DNA of 48,095 nucleotides, taken from the NCBI GenBank assembly GCA_021776435.1, contig JAJFFW010000090.1, positions 1-48,095 on the forward strand. Direction: 5' to 3'. How positions within the stretch are numbered: the first letter of the stretch is position 1; each line of letters begins with the position of its first letter. This document shows positions 7,741 through 28,890 of the stretch, in pieces. The notes beneath the pieces are model-generated. The model did no database searches, was not told where the DNA came from, and saw nothing but the letters and a program-made list of their open reading frames with translations. The stretch is from Parvularculaceae bacterium. GTDB lineage: Bacteria; Pseudomonadota; Alphaproteobacteria; Caulobacterales; Parvularculaceae. A program made the position numbers and the translations under genes.

Positions 7741-7936
7741 AGGAGCGGATGCCGTTAGAGTACTCGTCGAACGGCGTCAACATGTTTTAATAATTTGTTT
7801 GAAAACAAAGGGATAGGTGAGCGGTAGTATATTACCACACATCTCCAATCTTAGCTCACGCTTGACGCGTGTGGTCCAGGGCCACAAAAGAGAGACCGCT
7901 AAGTTGCGCCTTTTCACCATCGCCCGGAGAGCGTTC

Positions 7937-9109
7937 ATGCGCGCCTATCTTTCTCATCCAATCGCCCTTACCGCCGCCTTCGCCCTCCTCGCGGCCTGTA
8001 GTCCGCCAGAGCGAGAAGCAACACCGGACGCCGTCGAGGAAGCCACCCCTCCGCCCGTCGAAGATCCCACGCCGACTGACCAACCTGCGGAAGTGTCCAC
8101 TATCGACGAACTCGCCAAACTTTCGGCGACGGCGCATGGGCTCGCGTTCTGGAAACATCCTACACTGCCGTTCAAAAGCATGGTGATCGCCGCGACCGGC
8201 GTTGGCGTCATCGGATACGATATCGAAGACGGCGCTGAAGTTGCCCGCCTTGAAGGAATCGAAGCCGGCGGCGTCGACATCGCCTATATTGGCCAGGGCG
8301 ACACATCGCGCGCCGTCATGGCGGTCCATGACCGCAGCCAGCAGGCAATTGTGTTTTACGGCGTTGATAATATTTCCCGCCAATTCGCACCGGATCTTAC
8401 CGCCATCGCAATCGATGAAGACGCAGACGGGTTTTGTTTTGGCCGCATACCGGGTCGTGAGATGTTCACGCTTTATGTGCTTCGTGATGACAGACTATAC
8501 GGACAAGACATCGGCGCTTATGCGAGTAGCAACGTTTTACAAGATGTCGTGATTCATTCTCTTCCTGCAGCGGCGGTGGCCTGCGCTGTCGATGATCGCG
8601 ATGGCTCGGTCTTCGTCGCAGCAAAAGACGGCGCCATTTACCGCTTCGATCGTGGCGAGGGATTGACAACGCCTTTCGCACAAAGCGCCGCCAGACAACC
8701 TGTCTCTATCGGCATCGCGTTGAACGGATCCATAGACAGCGATACATCCGATCCGTGCTGTGGCCAAATTGCACTCCTCAATGGCGCCGACGGCGTTGTG
8801 CATCTTTTCGACCGCAAAGATGGCCGTGATCTGGGCGCCGTTCGATTGATCCGGTTTGATGAGATCGAGGGAGTCCATGCGGCGACGGCCATGGCGCTTG
8901 GCTATGCAAATTATGGTGGAATTTATCGTAGCGGCGCACTGGCGCTAGCGACCAATGGCGAGTCGCCTGCCTTACGAATGACGCCTTTCGGCGGGATCGC
9001 CAATGCCCTTGAGTTCACGCTCGGCGAACCCGTCAATCCACGCGGGAGTAATCCGGAGCCGGACAAAGACCCCAACACCATTATCGATATTGAAATTGTC
9101 AAACCCTGA
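7937..9109 (+). CDS. Lipoprotein with phytase-like beta-propeller features
   Basis: 390-aa exported protein. I start at ATG 7937 (GGAGA ribosome site; upstream in-frame residues are not signal-like), which gives MRAYLSHPIALTAAFALLAAC: a lipoprotein signal peptide with lipobox LAAC (Cys 21). A Pro/Glu/Thr-rich linker (about 24-55) precedes a repetitive region of beta-strand character. Phrases such as GFCFGR, LYVLRDDRLYGQDIG, YRFDRGEG and ALALATNGE resemble 3-phytase/beta-propeller lipoproteins of alphaproteobacteria. Family assignment is by overall pattern only. I could not identify the calcium and phosphate ligands needed to claim phytase activity. Divergent from rplM. Confidence 0.75.
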   Translation: MRAYLSHPIALTAAFALLAACSPPEREATPDAVEEATPPPVEDPTPTDQPAEVSTIDELAKLSATAHGLAFWKHPTLPFKSMVIAATGVGVIGYDIEDGAEVARLEGIEAGGVDIAYIGQGDTSRAVMAVHDRSQQAIVFYGVDNISRQFAPDLTAIAIDEDADGFCFGRIPGREMFTLYVLRDDRLYGQDIGAYASSNVLQDVVIHSLPAAAVACAVDDRDGSVFVAAKDGAIYRFDRGEGLTTPFAQSAARQPVSIGIALNGSIDSDTSDPCCGQIALLNGADGVVHLFDRKDGRDLGAVRLIRFDEIEGVHAATAMALGYANYGGIYRSGALALATNGESPALRMTPFGGIANALEFTLGEPVNPRGSNPEPDKDPNTIIDIEIVKP

Positions 9110-20844: not shown

Positions 20845-21852
20845 TTATGTGACCTGAAATCCACGCCAAAGTGGGTCGCGTTCATCAACGAAGATCGTGT
20901 TCAAACCGGTCATTCGCGCCCAACCGGAAAAGCTTGGCATGATAGCGTTAAAGTCACCGACCGTGGTGAGGGATTCGACACGCCCGTGAAAACAACTTCC
21001 GATGATGCTCTCATGAACAAAATCCTCTCCGGCCTTTAATCGGTCCTTCTCAACCCACTGCGCCATACGAGCGCTCGTACCGGTGCCGCATGGCGAACGG
21101 TCTATCGCCCGGTCACCGTAAAAAACAGCATTTCTGGCGTGTGCGCCTTTGGCGCGTGGGGCGCCGGTCCACATCACATGACTGACGCCGTTGATCGAGT
21201 CATCATGGGGGTGGACCGGATTGGTTTTCTCACGGACTAAACGCCGCACGTCCACACTCAAACGTAAAATATCATCGGCGCTTAAACTTTCAAGGCCGAG
21301 ATAATTCGTTTGCGGATCGATAATGGCGTAGAAATTACCGCCGTAAGCAACATCAATCCTGAGAGGACCCATACCGGGGCACTCAATCTCTATGTCTGTC
21401 GCCGCTAGATAGCTGGCGACATTAAAGAGACGCACCTCATCGATATAATGGCTTGAGCGTTTATATTCGGCGCGAACTTCACCGGCAGGCGCCTCCATGA
21501 CAACGACGCCTTCCCTGCGCGGCTGAATCAGCCCTTGTTCCAAGCCCATGGTGACAGCGCCTATCGCGCCATGTCCGCACATTGGCAAACAACCGCTGGT
21601 CTCCATGAAGACAATAGCAATATCGGCATTGGGGCTTATGGCAGGGTACAAAATTGCACCCGACATCATGTCATGACCACGGGGTTCAAACATCAATGAC
21701 TGACGGATCCAGTCATAATGCTCAATAAACGCTTTGCGTTTATCACTCATCGTATTGCCATAAAGCGCCGGGGCGCCACCCGCGACCAAACGCACAGGAT
21801 TGCCGCAAGTGTGGCCGTCTATGCAAAAAAACGTCTGAGGGTTTACGGGCAT
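20845..21852 (-). CDS. 4-hydroxyproline epimerase (proline racemase family)
   Basis: Proton-exchange epimerase expected to convert trans-4-hydroxy-L-proline to cis-4-hydroxy-D-proline. With the ATG at 21852 the product is 335 aa, normal for the family. Both catalytic cysteines are present: one in MCGHGAIG (about 92) and one in DRSPCGTGTSA (about 255). This separates it from trans-3-hydroxyproline dehydratases, where the second is Thr. Neighbouring deaminase, D-amino-acid oxidase-type and M24 aminopeptidase genes support hydroxyproline rather than plain proline racemase, but the substrate is inferred. It follows the deaminase gene with 12 bp between and is probably in its operon. Confidence 0.88.
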   Translation of the reverse strand: MPVNPQTFFCIDGHTCGNPVRLVAGGAPALYGNTMSDKRKAFIEHYDWIRQSLMFEPRGHDMMSGAILYPAISPNADIAIVFMETSGCLPMCGHGAIGAVTMGLEQGLIQPRREGVVVMEAPAGEVRAEYKRSSHYIDEVRLFNVASYLAATDIEIECPGMGPLRIDVAYGGNFYAIIDPQTNYLGLESLSADDILRLSVDVRRLVREKTNPVHPHDDSINGVSHVMWTGAPRAKGAHARNAVFYGDRAIDRSPCGTGTSARMAQWVEKDRLKAGEDFVHESIIGSCFHGRVESLTTVGDFNAIMPSFSGWARMTGLNTIFVDERDPLWRGFQVT

Positions 21853-21864
21853 CACCGGGGAGCC

Positions 21865-22788
21865 TTATGAAAGCACAGCGTTAATATCCGAACGCGTATC
21901 ATCCGCCTTCTTGACCGCCCCGATCAATGTTTCGCGCTCTTCACCTGTAAGCGTCATACGCGGCATGCGAACGCGTTCTGAGCCACGACCCATCACTTGT
22001 TCAGCGAGCTTGATATACTGCACCAGTTTTGGCTTCGAATCGAAATGCAGGAGCGGCATGAACCAACGATAAATGGTCCGCGCTTTCTCAATTTCTCCCG
22101 ATTGAAGACATTCATAAAGAGCGACACTCTCGCGCGGGAACGCATTGGAGAGACCGGACACCCATCCGCTGGCGCCGAGAACAAGCGCCTCAAACGCCAT
22201 ATCGTCAAGACCTGCGAAGACGACATAACGATCGCCGCAAGCTTCGATAATGTCTGTGAACCGGCGCGTGTCTTCAGCGGATTCTTTGATGCATATAATG
22301 TTCTCGACATCCGCTAAACGCGCCAGCGTTTCGAGCGATATGTTAATCCTGTAAGACGCCGGATTATTATAGAGCATGATAGGAAGGCCGGATGCGCCAG
22401 CAACATCTCGAAAGTGATGCTCCAGTTCCACAGCGTCCGGCGTATAAACCATAGCTGGCAAGACCATTAATCCATCAACACCGGCGGCCTCCGCATCGCT
22501 GACAAAATCCTTCGCCGCATCCGTCGTAAATTCGGAGACACCGGAAAGCAAAGGAACCCTTCCGGCCACGACTTCCCTCGCAGCTTGCATGATCGTTCGT
22601 TTTTCTGCTGGCCGTAGCGAATTATTCTCGCCAACCGTTCCCAGAATAACCAAGCCATGAACGCCATCCCCAATGAGGGCGTCAATGATGCGCTGGGTCG
22701 CATTCACATCAAGGTTGTGCATCTCATCAAATTGCGTCGTAACCGCAGGAAAAACGCCTTTAAAGATCGATCGGACAGAATCACCCAT
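21865..22788 (-). CDS. DapA-family lyase, probable 1-pyrroline-4-hydroxy-2-carboxylate deaminase
   Basis: Class I aldolase-fold Schiff-base enzyme of 307 aa. I start at ATG 22788, preceded by GAGGGAG; the frame reaches 22803. The catalytic residues are Y140 (IMLYNNP) and the Schiff-base K168 (ICIKES). Because it sits with a hydroxyproline epimerase and a D-amino-acid oxidase, the likely reaction is deamination of 1-pyrroline-4-hydroxy-2-carboxylate to alpha-ketoglutarate semialdehyde. True dihydrodipicolinate synthase or another DapA-family lyase cannot be excluded from sequence alone. First gene of the minus-strand arm. Confidence 0.82.
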   Translation of the reverse strand: MGDSVRSIFKGVFPAVTTQFDEMHNLDVNATQRIIDALIGDGVHGLVILGTVGENNSLRPAEKRTIMQAAREVVAGRVPLLSGVSEFTTDAAKDFVSDAEAAGVDGLMVLPAMVYTPDAVELEHHFRDVAGASGLPIMLYNNPASYRINISLETLARLADVENIICIKESAEDTRRFTDIIEACGDRYVVFAGLDDMAFEALVLGASGWVSGLSNAFPRESVALYECLQSGEIEKARTIYRWFMPLLHFDSKPKLVQYIKLAEQVMGRGSERVRMPRMTLTGEERETLIGAVKKADDTRSDINAVLS

Positions 22789-22911
22789 TGATCTCCCTCG
22801 CATTTTGTTGATGCTCAGACATTACTCAGCTTCGCTCCAGGTAAAGATTGTATAAAATATAGCCCCGGTTCATTCAATCGCTATTGTGGGTTGAGTTTGA
22901 AGCAGTGGCGT

Positions 22912-22934
22912 TCAAATTGCGCTCAAACTTGCGC
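22912..22934. promoter_or_regulatory. Tandem 11-12 bp direct repeat in the divergent hydroxyproline promoter region
   Basis: TCAAATTGCGC (22912-22922) is followed at once by TCAAACTTGCGC (22923-22934), near-identical direct repeats one helical turn apart in the 178-bp spacer between the two catabolic arms. This is a candidate operator for a pathway regulator, although no regulator gene is adjacent. Low-information sequence, so tentative. Confidence 0.3.
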
Positions 22935-22966
22935 TTAGAAGATACGGATGCGAGATCAAAAGAACG

Positions 22967-24217
22967 ATGAAACAGCCCTCGATTGAATATGACATCGCTG
23001 TGGTTGGCGCCGGCGTTGTCGGCGCAGCATGCGCCTTTCGACTTGCCCAGGGCGGGCGTTCGGTCGCCCTTCTTGACCGCGATGAACCTGGCCGAGCGTG
23101 TTCGTTTGGAAATGCGGGGCACCTGGGGACGGATCATATTTTTCCTCTTCCTTCCCTTTCGGCCCTGATGGCCACGCCGGGCTATCTCCTGAGTAAAGAC
23201 GCTCCACTCAAAATACCGGCGCGGTACGCCTTGCAAATCGCACCTTGGCTGGCGCGTTTTGTATGGGCCTCTCGGCCGAGCGCATTTCAACGGGGAACAG
23301 AGGCGTTAAAAAGCCTTCTTGGTCGATCTATGGACGATTTTTTAAACCTGGCGCGCGACGCCGACATCGTTGACCTTTGCCGTACGGACGGTCATTTGAT
23401 GCTGGTTGAACGCGCAGGTTCCATCAGAGAGGTGAAGAAACTCATTGCTGACAGCACTGCCCACGGCGTTCCGGTGACGTGGCTTGAACCTGACGCCGCT
23501 TATGAACTCATCGGACGTCGCTCGCCTGACATTGTCGGCGCTGCTCATTTTACCGGCACGGGGCACGTGAAGAGTCCTTTCGGCATTGTTCAGGCTTTCG
23601 CGAATGCCGCCGTCGCTGCCGGCGCCGACCTTCAACGCAGCGAAATTGTCAGTATCGAACGCACGTCCAGAGGTTATACGCTTAAAAGTCATCAAGGGGA
23701 TATTCGCGCCAAGTCTGTATTGATCACCGCGGGTGTCTGGTCTAAATCCATTGTAGCATCATTAGGATTTAATGTTCCTCTCGATACGGAGCGCGGTTAT
23801 CATTTGATGGCGGAAGGCGGCGAAACATCATTCCGAATTCCAGTGTCTTCTTTTGAACGAAAAGTGATCATAACGCCAATGGTGCAAGGTGTGCGAATTA
23901 CCGGCGCGATAGAATTCGGCGGCACGAAATTGCCGGAGGACACAAATCGCTATCAAATCCTTGAACGAACACTTGATCATCTTGCTCCTGAAGTTGACAG
24001 GACACGAATGAGTCAATGGATGGGGTTTCGTCCCTCCTTGCCAGATCTCCTGCCGGTCATTGGGTGCGCGCCGGGTGAACCAAACCTTCTATTCGCTTTC
24101 GGACATCAACATCTCGGTCTGACATTATCTGGCGTAACAGCGGAAATCGTCCGGTGTCTTGCTTATAATGAAGCAACCCCCATCGACTTAGCGCCTTTTC
24201 GCATAGAAAGATTCTGA
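22967..24217 (+). CDS. FAD-dependent D-amino-acid dehydrogenase (DadA-like), probable D-hydroxyproline oxidase
   Basis: 416-aa DAO/DadA family flavoprotein. The N-terminal dinucleotide motif VVGAGVVGAACA (about 11-22) is followed by the LLDRDEPG segment that binds the FAD ribose. The middle holds the substrate domain, and the C-terminal MGFRPSLPDLLPVIG and FAFGHQHLGLTLS blocks are FAD-contacting in this family. In the hydroxyproline pathway such an enzyme oxidises cis-4-hydroxy-D-proline to 1-pyrroline-4-hydroxy-2-carboxylate, and it diverges here from the epimerase and deaminase genes. General D-amino-acid oxidation is an alternative. Confidence 0.87.
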   Translation: MKQPSIEYDIAVVGAGVVGAACAFRLAQGGRSVALLDRDEPGRACSFGNAGHLGTDHIFPLPSLSALMATPGYLLSKDAPLKIPARYALQIAPWLARFVWASRPSAFQRGTEALKSLLGRSMDDFLNLARDADIVDLCRTDGHLMLVERAGSIREVKKLIADSTAHGVPVTWLEPDAAYELIGRRSPDIVGAAHFTGTGHVKSPFGIVQAFANAAVAAGADLQRSEIVSIERTSRGYTLKSHQGDIRAKSVLITAGVWSKSIVASLGFNVPLDTERGYHLMAEGGETSFRIPVSSFERKVIITPMVQGVRITGAIEFGGTKLPEDTNRYQILERTLDHLAPEVDRTRMSQWMGFRPSLPDLLPVIGCAPGEPNLLFAFGHQHLGLTLSGVTAEIVRCLAYNEATPIDLAPFRIERF

Positions 24218-24268
24218 TACCCTCTTGAAGAGCTAAATATTAAGCACACCCCCAACCAGGAAACGTTG

Positions 24269-25480
24269 ATGACAATTGGCGGAAAATCGCAACTTCAAGC
24301 CTTAGAAGGCCTGATGAATACACGCTCCGAAACAACCCCCATCACAACAGAAGAACACCGTTGCCGTATCGCGAAGGCTCAACGGTTGATGAGCGAGATG
24401 AATATCGATGCGTTATATTTAACCGCGGGAACAAGCCTGTATTATTTTACCGGAGTCTCTCTGGGGATGAATGAGCGTCTCATAGGGGCGATCTTTCCCG
24501 AAGAGGGTGACCCGATTTACATCTCGCCAACCTTCGAGGAACCGGTGCTTCGCGGATACATCACCATCGGCGATGATGTGCGGGTGTGGGAGGAAGATGA
24601 AGACCCCTATGCCTGTGTGCGAAGTGTTCTGGCTGATTTATCAGCGCTTTCAGGACGGATTGCAGTCGAGGAGAAGACACCCTATTTCGCAGTTCGGGGC
24701 CTGGCAGGCTGTGCACCGATGGCCTCACTGGTCGATGCAACACCGATCACTGCTGGGTGTCGCATGCAAAAATCCGCAGCAGAAATCATGCTTATGCAAC
24801 ACGCAAAAAACATCACCTTGGATGTTCATCGGCGCACTTCGCAAATCATGTATGAAGGCATCACAACCACGCAGATTGCGGCATTCATCAATGACGCTCA
24901 TAAAATCGCCGGGTCCGACAATGGCTCCACATTTTGCATCGTTTCCTTCGGTGAAAACACCGCATACCCCCATGCGCCCAATGTTGAGCAAAGTTTGAAA
25001 TGGGGGGATCTCATTTTAATCGATACCGGTTGCACCTTTCATGGCTATCACTCCGACATTACACGGACCTATATTTTTGGTGAGCCCTCCGCCAAACAAA
25101 ACAAGATTTGGGCGATTGAAAAAGAAGCTCAACAAGCCGCCTTCGACGCCGCCCAGATTGGCCGACCGTGCGCCAGCATTGACGCCGCCGCGCGGGCTGT
25201 CCTGGAACGTTATGGTCTAGGCCCGGACTATAAAACGCCCGGTCTCCCACACCGGACAGGGCATGGTATCGGTTTAGATATTCATGAGTGGCCCTATCTC
25301 GTGAGAGGCGATTTAACGCCGCTGGCCCAGGGTATGTGTTTTTCGAACGAACCCATGATCTGTCTTTATGGTGAGTTCGGCGTGCGTCTTGAGGACCATT
25401 TCTACATGACTGGAGATGGCCCTCGCTGGTTCACACACCCCAGTCACGCCATCGACGACCCGTTTGGAGAGCGAAAATAG
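24269..25480 (+). CDS. M24-family aminopeptidase (Xaa-Pro dipeptidase/aminopeptidase type)
   Basis: 403-aa pita-bread metallopeptidase. All five metal ligands are present: D252 (IDTG), D263 (SDITRT), H332 (RTGHGIG), E361 (SNEP) and E375 (RLED). The N-terminal creatinase-like domain spans about 25-160. I start at ATG 24269; a TTG immediately before it also fits. It probably releases proline or hydroxyproline from peptides and so feeds the neighbouring pathway; it is 51 bp after the oxidase gene and probably co-transcribed. Confidence 0.88.
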   Translation: MTIGGKSQLQALEGLMNTRSETTPITTEEHRCRIAKAQRLMSEMNIDALYLTAGTSLYYFTGVSLGMNERLIGAIFPEEGDPIYISPTFEEPVLRGYITIGDDVRVWEEDEDPYACVRSVLADLSALSGRIAVEEKTPYFAVRGLAGCAPMASLVDATPITAGCRMQKSAAEIMLMQHAKNITLDVHRRTSQIMYEGITTTQIAAFINDAHKIAGSDNGSTFCIVSFGENTAYPHAPNVEQSLKWGDLILIDTGCTFHGYHSDITRTYIFGEPSAKQNKIWAIEKEAQQAAFDAAQIGRPCASIDAAARAVLERYGLGPDYKTPGLPHRTGHGIGLDIHEWPYLVRGDLTPLAQGMCFSNEPMICLYGEFGVRLEDHFYMTGDGPRWFTHPSHAIDDPFGERK

Positions 25481-25590: not shown

Positions 25591-25675
25591 GCCGTTGAGA
25601 TGCATTTCGTCTAAAAGCTTCAGTTCAATTGTTTGAATCTTGAATACAGAGCCTCCTCATAAGGATTTAACATAT

Positions 25676-26242
25676 ATGAAAAAAATCATCATCGGCATAG
25701 GCGGTGCGAGCGGTGTGATTTATGGAGTCCGCATTCTCGAAGTATTACGAGACACACCAGACGTCGAGACACATCTTGTCATGAGCACTACATCGCAAAT
25801 TAATCTTCGTGTAGAGACCGATTGGAATATAGAAGACGTAAGAACCCTGGCCAACAAAAACTATAAGAACACAGACATAGGTGCAGCGTTAGCCAGCGGA
25901 TCTTTCAAAACTGACGGCATGATAATCGCTGCCTGTTCTATCAAATCCTTATCTGGCATCGTTCACTCTTATGCGGATGATCTTTTAACACGGGCCGCAG
26001 ACGTTTGTCTGAAAGAACAACGGCCGCTTATCCTGATGCCGCGAGAGTCCCCTTTGCATCGCGGTCATTGTAAACTTCTGTATGAAGCAAGTAAGCTTGG
26101 CGCTGTTATCGCACCGCCATTACCGGCGCTCTACAACCGCCCAAAAACAATTGATGATGTTATCAATCATTCCGTCGGACGCGTTCTTGATCTGGTCGGT
26201 ATAGATTCCGATTTGGTTAAACGATGGTCCGGAGTGCAGTGA
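25676..26242 (+). CDS. UbiX-family flavin prenyltransferase
   Basis: 188-aa member of the UbiX/Pad1 family, which makes prenylated FMN for UbiD-type decarboxylases. The N-terminal GIGGASGVIYGVRILEVL binds the flavin phosphate, and PRESPLHRGHCKLLYEASKLGAVIAPP followed by LPALYNRP matches the family's signature region. I use ATG 25676 (AAGGA ten bases upstream); a TTG at 25640 is less likely. There is no UbiD gene in the window. The family usually has PRETP; here it is PRESP. It may serve ubiquinone synthesis or a linked aromatic-acid decarboxylase elsewhere. Confidence 0.85.
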   Translation: MKKIIIGIGGASGVIYGVRILEVLRDTPDVETHLVMSTTSQINLRVETDWNIEDVRTLANKNYKNTDIGAALASGSFKTDGMIIAACSIKSLSGIVHSYADDLLTRAADVCLKEQRPLILMPRESPLHRGHCKLLYEASKLGAVIAPPLPALYNRPKTIDDVINHSVGRVLDLVGIDSDLVKRWSGVQ

Positions 26243-26471
26243 AAGTGAACTCTATATCAACGGTTCCTATGTTCATCCCAACTCTCACGATTTGATTTTG
26301 ATGATGATTAAGGATTCTCTTATTATTATTCCGTATAATGATACCACCGCAATGACGCCGTAGCAGAGTACGGAGCACTCTGAGACAGAACGTGAAGTCT
26401 CGATCATTAAACCAGAAAATCGAATAAGTTCGATCAAAAATGATATTGCACAGACGCTTGATAAACGATAA
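26241..26471 (+). pseudogene. Decayed N-terminal fragment of an aldehyde dehydrogenase
   Basis: Directly after the UbiX-type gene one frame reads ELYINGSYVHPNSHDLI, the opening beta-strand pair of aldehyde dehydrogenases (consensus like LYINGEWV.P.SG). It continues to IIPYNDTTAMTP and then a TAG at 26361. The same frame resumes and includes SETEREVSIIKPENRISSIK and NDIAQTLDK, which fits the following helix (S.TPREER..LL.RI...). Between them the alternative frame gives AVAEYGAL, where intact enzymes have AVAAARAAF, so small indels probably accumulated. There is no start codon and nothing of the catalytic half. A decayed gene, not expressed as a functional enzyme. Confidence 0.6.
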
Positions 26472-26501
26472 TTGTATGAATTATGGCTTAAAAAAGCGCG
26501 C

Positions 26502-26519
26502 TCTGTTCAAAAGAACAGA
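26502..26519. promoter_or_regulatory. Perfect 18-bp inverted repeat upstream of marR-type gene
   Basis: TCTGTTC-AAAA-GAACAGA (7-bp arms) about 50-90 bp before the possible starts of the MarR-family gene, with no T run after it. Candidate protein-binding palindrome. Confidence 0.4.
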
Positions 26520-26557
26520 CTAGCCCTCACTGCTCTTTACTAGACCGCGAGTTCCTT

Positions 26558-26578
26558 TTAACAACTAGTGGTTCTTAA
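26558..26578. promoter_or_regulatory. MarR-type operator-like palindrome
   Basis: TTAACAACTAGTGGTTCTTAA is an imperfect 21-bp dyad (TTAA-AAC...GTT-TTAA core), the size and shape of MarR-family operators. It overlaps the most upstream possible start of the MarR gene (26568), which argues for a later start and for autoregulation. Confidence 0.4.
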
Positions 26579-26591
26579 ACAAAAAGTGGCG

Positions 26592-27140
26592 ATGTCGATG
26601 AAAGACACATCAAATTTAAATAACGAAATCTCTTCGCAGGGGTCTGACCCCAACGGTGATGTCAGGATCAAGGAAAGGCTCGATCTTGCACACCACCTCC
26701 CCTACCGGCTCAGTCAAGTTTCACGTATGGGCTCGATCGGCGCTTCCAGGCTCTTCCAAAAACGTTTCGGCTTCGGAATTCGCGAATGGCGAATTATCGC
26801 CCTCTTGGGGGACTACGGCCCTGCAAGCGCAGCGGACATGGTTGGCCCTGCCGCGTTCGATAAAGCGACGGTAAGTCGCGCTATAGGGGTCTTAGAACGT
26901 GGCGGCATTGTCGAGAGATTGCCTGACGCAAGCGACGGCAGAAAACAGGTCGTCCGGCTAACCTCTAAGGGCGTTGAGGTCCATGACCACATCGTACCAT
27001 TATCGCGAATGCGTGGCAGGATGCTTGAATCCGTTTTAACTCAAGAAGAACGAGATCAGCTTTTCACAATTCTTGACAAATTGGCAGCGCATCTCGAATG
27101 GCTGGCGCGCGAAGAAAAAGATGACTTCATCATCGAATAA
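26592..27140 (+). CDS. MarR-family transcriptional regulator
   Basis: 182 aa from ATG 26592. A GTG at 26568 and an ATG at 26598 are alternatives, and none has a strong ribosome site. Winged helix-turn-helix typical of MarR: dimerisation helices at both ends, recognition region FGIREWRIIALLGDYGPASAADM then FDKATVSRAIGVLERGGIVERLPDASDGRK with the wing DGRKQVVRLTSKG. MarR proteins commonly bind phenolic or hydrophobic ligands. Its neighbours, a UbiX-type gene and an OsmC-type gene, are compatible with control of aromatic-compound or peroxide handling, but the ligand is unknown. Convergent with the OsmC gene. Confidence 0.88.
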   Translation: MSMKDTSNLNNEISSQGSDPNGDVRIKERLDLAHHLPYRLSQVSRMGSIGASRLFQKRFGFGIREWRIIALLGDYGPASAADMVGPAAFDKATVSRAIGVLERGGIVERLPDASDGRKQVVRLTSKGVEVHDHIVPLSRMRGRMLESVLTQEERDQLFTILDKLAAHLEWLAREEKDDFIIE

Positions 27141-27188: not shown

Positions 27189-28370
27189 TCAGCGCGCCTC
27201 AACCTCTACACGAACAGGCACATCTGAACGCGCCGCAGCGTGAAGAAAACAGGTTCGCTCACCCATTTGGAGGAGTTTTTGGGTCGAAGCTAAATTCTCT
27301 GAAGTATCCACATAAACATGCGTAACCACTGGCGATGCTGTTGCCGCGCCGGTCTTTAACGCGATCGCTGGTTCCATAAATTTTGTCTTTTGGAATAACT
27401 TGGTCGACGCCAAATCAAATTTGACTATTTTTGAATACCGTTCGAATTGGGTCATCAAACAAAACGCAATTCCCGCAGAAAAATAATCCAGTCCTGTGGG
27501 CGCTCGCGCACGCCCTCCTCGGCATAAAAGATCATCGCCAATGAACCTGAAAGAGCTGCCAATCGGTTGAAAGAGCTCGATATCCGCCTCATAAAAACCG
27601 TTCTCGTTAATACACAAATTGCCGCTCACATGTAACGTTCTCTTTTGAATTGCCTGGAGACTGGAACCCACCCCCCCCGTTACGCCGAGTTTCTTTTCGG
27701 CTTCTTTAAGCTTGCTCAATATAGGTTTTTTTAACAACGCCTCACCCTCTGGACTTATATAATTAAAATCACCGATATGAGGTGGGGGAACAATTTCGGC
27801 CGTAGATTTGATAAACTCGATCGGAGTTTCGTCACCGTTATGATGTAGTGAAAATTCATTTTGGAGGATGACCTTCACATAAGCGACTGTCGCCGAATAA
27901 CGCACCGCTTCGTCTACAATTGAATGAAGTGTTTTCTTAGCGACACCTTCTGCCTTCACATGAAGACTAACGGGCAAAGCCTGTCCCTTCATTGTTCCTT
28001 TAAGTGCTGACCCTTCCATTGTGAAATAATTATTGACGCTCAGCTCCAAACCACTGAGTGACACGCCATCTCGCTCCGCAATAAGACGGATATTCGATGC
28101 TATGTCGATTGCTATGCCCGCTGAAAAAAAAGCGAGTGGAAATGGCACCAGATCCGTCCCGTTAAGATATGGTCCTTCATCACTGACCATTCTCCATGTC
28201 GCTTCCAAAGGACCGTTATGGACGAGCGCCTCTTTCAGCATCCCCCCAAGAGAACGCGACTTTACGGCGATGCAGCAGCTATCAACATCATTGCTTGCAA
28301 CCGCTGACAATATACTGTCCAAGCCAATCTTAAATACAAACGGCTTATTTATGCCTTGCATCGACGCCAT
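27189..28370 (-). CDS. Protein with two OsmC-like domains
   Basis: 393 aa from ATG 28370 (a TTG at 28394 and an ATG at 28361 are alternatives). The N-terminal half reads like an OsmC fold: GTDLVPFPLAFFSAGIAIDI, then SVNNYFTMEG and the long helix AEGVAKKTLHSIVDEAVRYS. The expected cysteine after FFSAG is replaced. The C-terminal half repeats the pattern (GLDYFSAGIAFCLMTQFERY ... ERTCFLHAA) with two cysteines in the positions typical of OsmC/Ohr peroxidases. One degenerate and one possibly redox-active domain would make a single-chain pseudodimer, since OsmC proteins are normally about 140-aa dimers. Function unproven; thiol peroxidase-like is plausible. Confidence 0.65.
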   Translation of the reverse strand: MASMQGINKPFVFKIGLDSILSAVASNDVDSCCIAVKSRSLGGMLKEALVHNGPLEATWRMVSDEGPYLNGTDLVPFPLAFFSAGIAIDIASNIRLIAERDGVSLSGLELSVNNYFTMEGSALKGTMKGQALPVSLHVKAEGVAKKTLHSIVDEAVRYSATVAYVKVILQNEFSLHHNGDETPIEFIKSTAEIVPPPHIGDFNYISPEGEALLKKPILSKLKEAEKKLGVTGGVGSSLQAIQKRTLHVSGNLCINENGFYEADIELFQPIGSSFRFIGDDLLCRGGRARAPTGLDYFSAGIAFCLMTQFERYSKIVKFDLASTKLFQKTKFMEPAIALKTGAATASPVVTHVYVDTSENLASTQKLLQMGERTCFLHAAARSDVPVRVEVEAR

Positions 28371-28394
28371 AGAGGCTTTGTTTCCCAAAAACAA

Positions 28395-28816: not shown

Positions 28817-28890
28817 TGGAGCGGGTAGCGGGGATCGAACCCGCATCTTGAGCTTGGAAGGCTCCGACTCTACCATTGAGCTATACCCGC
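28817..28890 (-). tRNA. tRNA-Gly (anticodon TCC)
   Basis: Read on minus the sequence begins GCGGGTATAGCTCAATGGTA, folds into a cloverleaf with 7-bp acceptor GCGGGTA/TACCCGC, anticodon loop CTTCCAA (anticodon TCC, decoding GGA/GGG) and T-arm CGGGTTCGATCCCCG. It ends with discriminator T and an encoded CCA at 28817-28819. Confidence 0.96.

Follow-up and report, generated by a model that had tools for sequence, protein, structure and literature searches.

The Locus and Its Reading Frame

The window analyzed here is a stretch of 48,095 nucleotides from a Parvularculaceae bacterium and carries, on its minus strand, a gene for a protein made up of two OsmC units (Table 1). The frame 27189-28394 has no internal stop, and the ATG at 28370, giving 393 residues, is probably a better start than the upstream TTG, because members of the family begin at about the same place; residue numbers below run from this ATG. 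A chance reading frame is ruled out by conservation across the family, and a pseudogene by the uninterrupted frame together with the retention of both cysteines, C304 and C374, in unit 2. The chain contains four further cysteines (two in DSCC, one in NLCIN and one in LLCRG), none of which aligns with the C304 or C374 sites.

Table 1. Features of the tandem OsmC gene, in window positions
Feature	Position	Strand	Remarks
Tandem OsmC gene	27189..28370	minus	393 aa from ATG
Alternative TTG start at 28394	27189-28394	minus	would give 401 aa
OsmC unit 1, without both catalytic Cys	27825..28283	minus	residues 30-182; NF041052, hhalign, model
Linker, poorly conserved	27663..27824	minus	residues 183-236; mean JSD 0.341
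OsmC unit 2, carries Cys	27192..27662	minus	residues 237-393; NF041052, PF02566
C304 codon (TGT), proposed redox nucleophile, C-x-x-T	27459..27461	minus	17/17 in A1
C374 codon, proposed resolving Cys	27249..27251	minus	17/17 in A1
D89 codon, unit-1 counterpart of C304	28104..28106	minus	hhalign and pooled alignment
S159 codon, unit-1 counterpart of C374	27894..27896	minus	hhalign and pooled alignment
Unit-1 conserved block	28173..28235	minus	residues 46-66

Neighbors of the OsmC gene in the window are genes for a UbiX flavin prenyltransferase and a MarR regulator and a group of amino-acid genes. UbiX and then the MarR gene occupy 25640-27140, convergent with the OsmC gene; UbiD is matched once in the genome of the window, over 252 bases and on a different contig. 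At 20845-25480, genes for a proline racemase, a dihydrodipicolinate-synthase-like protein, an FAD amino-acid oxidase (DAO) and an M24 peptidase stand in a row, apparently a set for the catabolism of hydroxyproline or D-amino acids. Farther off, a 430-aa frame at 7817-9109 has no Pfam match at E ≤ 1e-5. The GC content, calculated over 1-kb windows, is 0.45-0.48 from about 25.5 to 29 kb versus 0.49-0.55 elsewhere in the 20-33 kb region, with the lower-GC stretch taking in the MarR and OsmC genes and part of UbiX. A tRNA-Gly gene (tcc, 28817-28890) borders this stretch, a short way upstream of the OsmC gene. A tRNA-anchored island was considered and rejected: with up to 3 mismatches allowed, the 3' end of the tRNA does not recur in the window, and no island boundary was found; phage records gave no match.

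Two OsmC Units in One Chain

That two OsmC units are fused in this chain, with only the second one keeping the cysteine pair, had been proposed in a sequence-only reading of the window, and both proposals are borne out. Searched against the genome, the curated domain model NF041052 (OsmC_like_Se) matches unit 2 at 27201-27554 (E 6.2e-23, 82.3 bits) and unit 1 at 27933-28265 (E 4.9e-16, 59.8 bits). The whole protein scores 137.4 bits over two stretches and so exceeds the curated cutoff of 95, with each half alone staying below it. Pfam OsmC (PF02566) likewise matches in two stretches, the C-terminal half best (46.8 bits against a gathering cutoff of 27.5, E 4.3e-12), whereas the Ohr model TIGR03561 reaches 13.9 bits against a curated cutoff of 88.85; the N-terminal half also gives a weak match, under cutoff, to Pfam DIP2116-like_N (E 0.012). 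Half-profiles of the two units, derived from an alignment of 81 proteins (A2, see below), are aligned by hhalign with a probability of 99.3 (E 1.9e-19), colinearly across 150 columns and at 18% identity. None of the 54 linker columns falls in the top decile of JSD. The cysteines reside in FCLMT (C304) and TCFLHA (C374) of unit 2, which matches the superfamily pattern of a conserved cysteine on the central helix and another one downstream.

The family is already covered by NF041052 and is known to annotation. The likeness to this model lies in the score over its cutoff and in a C-x-x-T that stands where OsmC-like selenoproteins have U-x-x-T; NF041052 describes a single domain of 144 positions, whereas here two copies are fused, one of them without both cysteines. 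OsmC-like selenoproteins with a UXXT motif are described in a Sargasso Sea survey (PMC1088965). Selenocysteine at the C304 position is found in some NF041052 members only and is not encoded here, the codon being TGT, and a narrow, degenerate TGA pattern retrieved nothing from 398 genomes of the phylum. With the Ohr/OsmC thiol peroxidases, the protein has in common two cysteines and the OsmC fold (predicted here). Those enzymes are homodimers with two sites, in contrast to a single chain with, presumably, a single site; according to one report, Ohr/OsmC proteins have their active sites at the dimer interface, and Ohr differs from OsmC in the loop that bears the catalytic arginine (PMC5962072). 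Since the two fused units are non-equivalent and a homodimer with two equal sites is not what is found, the protein is a variant of the OsmC/Ohr superfamily rather than a typical homodimeric OsmC/Ohr. Among the papers listed in a search judged from titles and abstract openings, with subscription journals mostly outside its scope, we recognized none on a tandem or fused OsmC architecture.

Family, Distribution and Duplication

Whole-protein searches yielded 16 further tandem proteins, which together with the window protein constitute alignment A1 (17 rows). Scanned with the window protein by itself, genome_contigs returned no relative; a profile scan of this collection (84,980 species) did, giving 276 candidate stretches of which 255 are relatives. 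Alignment A2 comprises the best 80 of these 255 and the window protein. All 80 are tandems, in a ranking that favors tandems, so that they do not give the tandem share among all 255. Their frames measure 371-410 aa, one (L103) being cut by a contig end, and all 81 A2 rows match both NF041052 and PF02566 at E ≤ 0.01. Judged by record titles, the best 80 of 255 are mostly from Alphaproteobacteria, with others from Gammaproteobacteria, Acidobacteria, Actinobacteria, Verrucomicrobia and Bacteroidia; with many of the loci stemming from metagenome bins, single taxon assignments may be wrong. A survey of family distribution, named in the sequence-only reading as a way to check it, thus shows the tandem to recur across a broad family (A1 and the 80 loci). 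Five plasmid records also hold relatives, with 26-37% identity across 80% or more of the length and annotated as 'OsmC family protein' (three) or 'hypothetical protein' (two). Divergent tandem members annotated as hypothetical proteins are located on Streptomyces plasmids (L022 11890-13008, L023 11893-13017).

Closer to the window, 60 genomes, 36 from its family and 24 from its order, gave no match, and any match at all was obtained in 10 of 385 genomes of the class and 8 of 398 of the phylum, counts that each include the window's own genome and in which several matches are single-domain proteins. The distribution of the gene is patchy. Its absence from near relatives and the lower GC suggest that the OsmC gene was acquired from elsewhere, perhaps with its neighbors. 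The window's own genome has a second OsmC-domain gene (L140, G000:C13:21542-21823), which lies within a 424-aa frame.

A FastTree phylogeny was calculated over 155 columns from 27 N units and 27 C units (of 19/81 A2 rows and 8/17 A1 rows) and 12 single-domain relatives. N units, C units and singles each come out separate, with support values of 0.83, 0.88 and 0.99, and because N and C units form groups of their own, a single old duplication likely lies behind the tandem family. Unit 1 of four acidobacterial members (L031, L032, L033 and L037) retains FCYMTQ or FCYLTQ, without the second cysteine. These may be read as intermediates, a regain of the motif being possible as well. A gene for the benzoyl-CoA epoxidase BoxB lies close to these four loci.

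Conserved Residues of the Two Units

Five residues of unit 2, C304, T307, Q308, C374 and H377, are invariant in the 17 tandems of A1, which were collected by whole-protein searches. C304 is also cysteine in 81/81 A2 rows, where the single peptide pattern of the scan covers it (fixing C304 and T307 and leaving a narrow choice at the adjoining columns) and so demanded it in the 80 loci; its invariance therefore rests on the 17 rows of A1. C374, outside the scan pattern, is cysteine in all 80 A2 rows that have a residue there, one row being truncated. The unit-1 counterparts in A2 are mostly serine, at the C304 site in 69/81 and at the C374 site in 71/81, with the window protein having Asp and Ser, respectively. 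Within unit 1, K46, E47, W59, R60, D64, E65 and G66 are each invariant in 81/81 A2 rows. Three residues common in A2, Q45, G310 and C380 (80, 80 and 72 of 81 rows), are lacking in the window protein.

To compare the units with single-domain proteins, 98 rows for each of the N and C units (A2 contributing 81 and A1 17) were aligned with the 12 single-domain relatives, in a pool that has some redundancy, the window being present twice and L002 and L097 apparently being one genome. The C304 position is cysteine in 4/98 N units, 98/98 C units and 12/12 singles, and the C374 position in 3/98, 97/98 and 12/12; T307 is kept in 15/98, 98/98 and 11/12. The opposite distribution is seen for D64 (98/98 N units, 52/98 C units, 12/12 singles) and P78 (98/98, 8/98 and 12/12). 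Residues that single-domain relatives hold in one chain thus appear partly divided between the two units, cleanly so at only a few columns, with E65 for instance still present in 84/98 C units. Other unit-1 residues follow the singles less closely: G66 is Gly in just 5/12 and W59 Trp in just 4/12 singles, the four residues most often seen at position 60 in the 12 singles do not include Arg, and the Lys of the QKE motif (K46) is matched by a Lys displaced by one column in 73/98 C units. E47 and R60 are present in 97/98 N units of the pool. K46, E47, W59 and R60 are better seen as hallmarks of unit 1. As to overall conservation, the strand parts of units 1 and 2 do not differ significantly (0.609 vs 0.573, p 0.34), and the helix part is better conserved in unit 2 than in unit 1 (0.615 vs 0.552, Wilcoxon p 0.002), with 9 of the columns constrained by the scan pattern.

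Predicted Structure

AlphaFold2 modeling of the single sequence was discarded (pLDDT 36); with the 81-row alignment it gave a model of the whole protein with pLDDT 91.1 and pTM 0.93. Comparison of this model with known structures by VIA-align places OsmC/Ohr-like chains at ranks 1-34 (including three under other names that we take to be OsmC/Ohr-like), with 3cje on top (Z 12.0, 2.0 Å, 141 residues). Methionine adenosyltransferase entries follow from rank 35 on at Z about 5; a kinship with these was rejected, and we consider them matches to a common arrangement. The OsmC fold is therefore predicted with confidence. The nearest solved structure both by sequence and by fold, 3cje (OsmC-like Jann_2040 from Jannaschia) differs in being a single unit of 167 residues with cysteines at both the C304 and the C374 positions. 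The sequence-only reading had suggested a pseudodimer, to be given up should the N-terminal half prove unlike OsmC. The profiles of both halves and the confident whole-protein model show an OsmC-like N-terminal half and support the pseudodimer.

In all 34 top ranks the aligned part of the model starts at residues 22-42 and ends at 391-393, though unit 2 starts near residue 237. This is suggestive, and suggestive only, of an exchange of strands, in which the strands of unit 1 and the cysteine half of unit 2 would equal one OsmC chain: VIA-align ranges are end points without a path and could include just one unit-1 strand, and the rows of the unrelated methionine adenosyltransferases likewise start at residues 26-31. 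Foldseek alignments, which are too short to cover both units, gave an rmsd of 13.8 for 3cje and of 2.5 (TM 0.68) for 1vla_C, and the latter one-unit alignment would speak against strand exchange.

Genomic Neighborhood of the Relatives

Recurrent neighbors of the tandem genes, named by NCBIfam searches with one representative per cluster and with clusters of wrong-strand shadow frames left out, are aldehyde dehydrogenases, glutathione transferase-like proteins, protocatechuate 4,5-dioxygenase LigA and LigB, LigM-type O-demethylase, PobA, FAD monooxygenases and BoxB. To these we add TRAP transporters, named after a plasmid annotation, presumed GntR regulators, and a putative amidohydrolase, whose representative had no NCBIfam match. 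Neighbor queries were then run by tblastn on 94 tandem loci (the window excluded and L046 and L182 removed as duplicates) and on 40 control stretches of 17 kb, taken at round positions in 13 genomes encountered in the searches and in 27 of the 40 cases from genomes that carry a tandem gene. Each of LigA and LigB is present at 15/94 tandem loci versus 0/40 controls (p 0.003 each), and any of PobA, LigA, LigB, LigM or RdhA at 26/94 versus 0/40, counts that are biased upward since all neighbor queries except UbiX and MarR were taken from tandem loci; TcuA, a query from a tandem plasmid, matched 1/94 loci and 1/40 controls. The relatives are enriched near aromatic-catabolism genes. Plasmid relatives near reductive dehalogenases (Comamonas pBHB, Nitratireductor pOM-1) are too few for an enrichment.

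The association with aromatic catabolism is seen in the family sample and not for the window copy. Within 15001-42000 of the window, the only neighbor queries to score were those derived from the window itself and, weakly, a TRAP permease (30%), and LigB has no match in the window genome (the control being positive in 4/14). PF13486 (reductive dehalogenase) has no match there either, with the control likewise silent, so that absence is not implied. Our literature search found no study on the role of the gene adjoining aromatic catabolic operons. One candidate relative from the literature was rejected: orf404 of Pigmentiphaga kullae H8 is reported to be co-transcribed with phbh1, pcaA and pcaB (PMC12016517), and we estimate that the 4,340-base five-gene stretch is too short to accommodate a gene of 1.2 kb.

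A Proposed Composite Thiol-Redox Site

We read the protein as an asymmetric single-chain OsmC pseudodimer with one composite thiol-redox site that would reduce an organic peroxide or an oxidized aromatic by-product, a reading to which we assign a probability of roughly 0.45. An old duplication would have fused two NF041052-type OsmC units, of which unit 2 would have retained the cysteine pair and unit 1 would have lost both cysteines, keeping D64 and P78 of the single-domain relatives and fixing K46, E47, W59 and R60 as residues of its own. Each chain would then contain one composite site beside a dead second one. By analogy, C304 is likely the nucleophile and C374 the resolving cysteine, as only the C304 site has the C-x-x-T form that fits the UXXT of the selenoproteins, and the chemistry would proceed via a C304 sulfenate and then a C304-C374 disulfide. 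The substrate would most likely be an organic peroxide or other oxidized by-product of aromatic metabolism, and in many relatives the function would serve aromatic catabolism.

How far unit 1 takes part is what separates the composite site from an ordinary Ohr/OsmC-type peroxidase whose whole site resides in unit 2, with unit 1 a mere fold partner fixing the dimer. The latter is a possibility we hold at less than an even chance by a clear distance. It accords with both cysteines being in unit 2, with the better conservation of the unit-2 helix part (pattern bias included), with C units keeping R275 in 54/98 and E280 in 84/98, and with the one-unit Foldseek alignment to 1vla_C, but it leaves unit 1 with seven invariant residues within 46-66, seemingly beyond the needs of folding, and with D64 and P78 kept there while eroded in unit 2. 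A share of unit 1 in the active site would fit these seven residues, and we rate it somewhat above a role in structure alone. Of the sequence-only suggestion that one half has become a structural or regulatory partner, the structural part may still stand and for the regulatory part no evidence was found, the invariant residues of unit 1 instead fitting a contribution to the active site. That the protein is a redox sensor or regulator working with the MarR gene at 26568-27140 is very improbable. OhrR belongs to the MarR family, ohr genes are governed by OhrR regulators, and the MarR-family gene stands tail to tail with the OsmC gene, 48 bases apart; yet no relative of it, at the cutoff used, occurs near any of the 94 tandem loci, and against the OhrR model NF052638 it gives only E 0.056.

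Rather than a general peroxidase, the protein could be an aromatic-pathway enzyme that depends on its thiols, acting for example in the reduction of quinones or thiol adducts or linked to dehalogenation. Relatives adjoin pobA, ligAB, LigM, BoxB and a glutathione-transferase-like gene, and two of the plasmid relatives have a reductive dehalogenase nearby. No one pathway is common to all loci, however, the five hallmark genes are absent from 68/94 tandem loci (some of them cut short), the dehalogenase count of 2/94 versus 0/40 is not significant (p 0.49) and the window genome is without a LigB match, which leaves this option doubtful. Similarly unlikely in our estimate is a more elaborate form of the composite-site reading, in which after one ancient duplication the units would have degenerated complementarily and exchanged strands, so that loop and strand residues of unit 1 and the cysteine pair of unit 2 would form one composite site for by-products of aromatic ring cleavage, with L031-L033 and L037 preserved half-way.

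The pseudodimer with one composite site, if true, would exemplify the natural conversion of a homodimeric thiol enzyme into a single-chain, one-site form, for which single-domain relatives and apparent intermediates allow comparison. It also points to a recurrent gene beside aromatic catabolic operons, including the two plasmids with reductive dehalogenases. On these two plasmids the reductive dehalogenase genes (L019 2828-5869, L020 6817-10035) lie less than 10 kb from the tandem OsmC gene.
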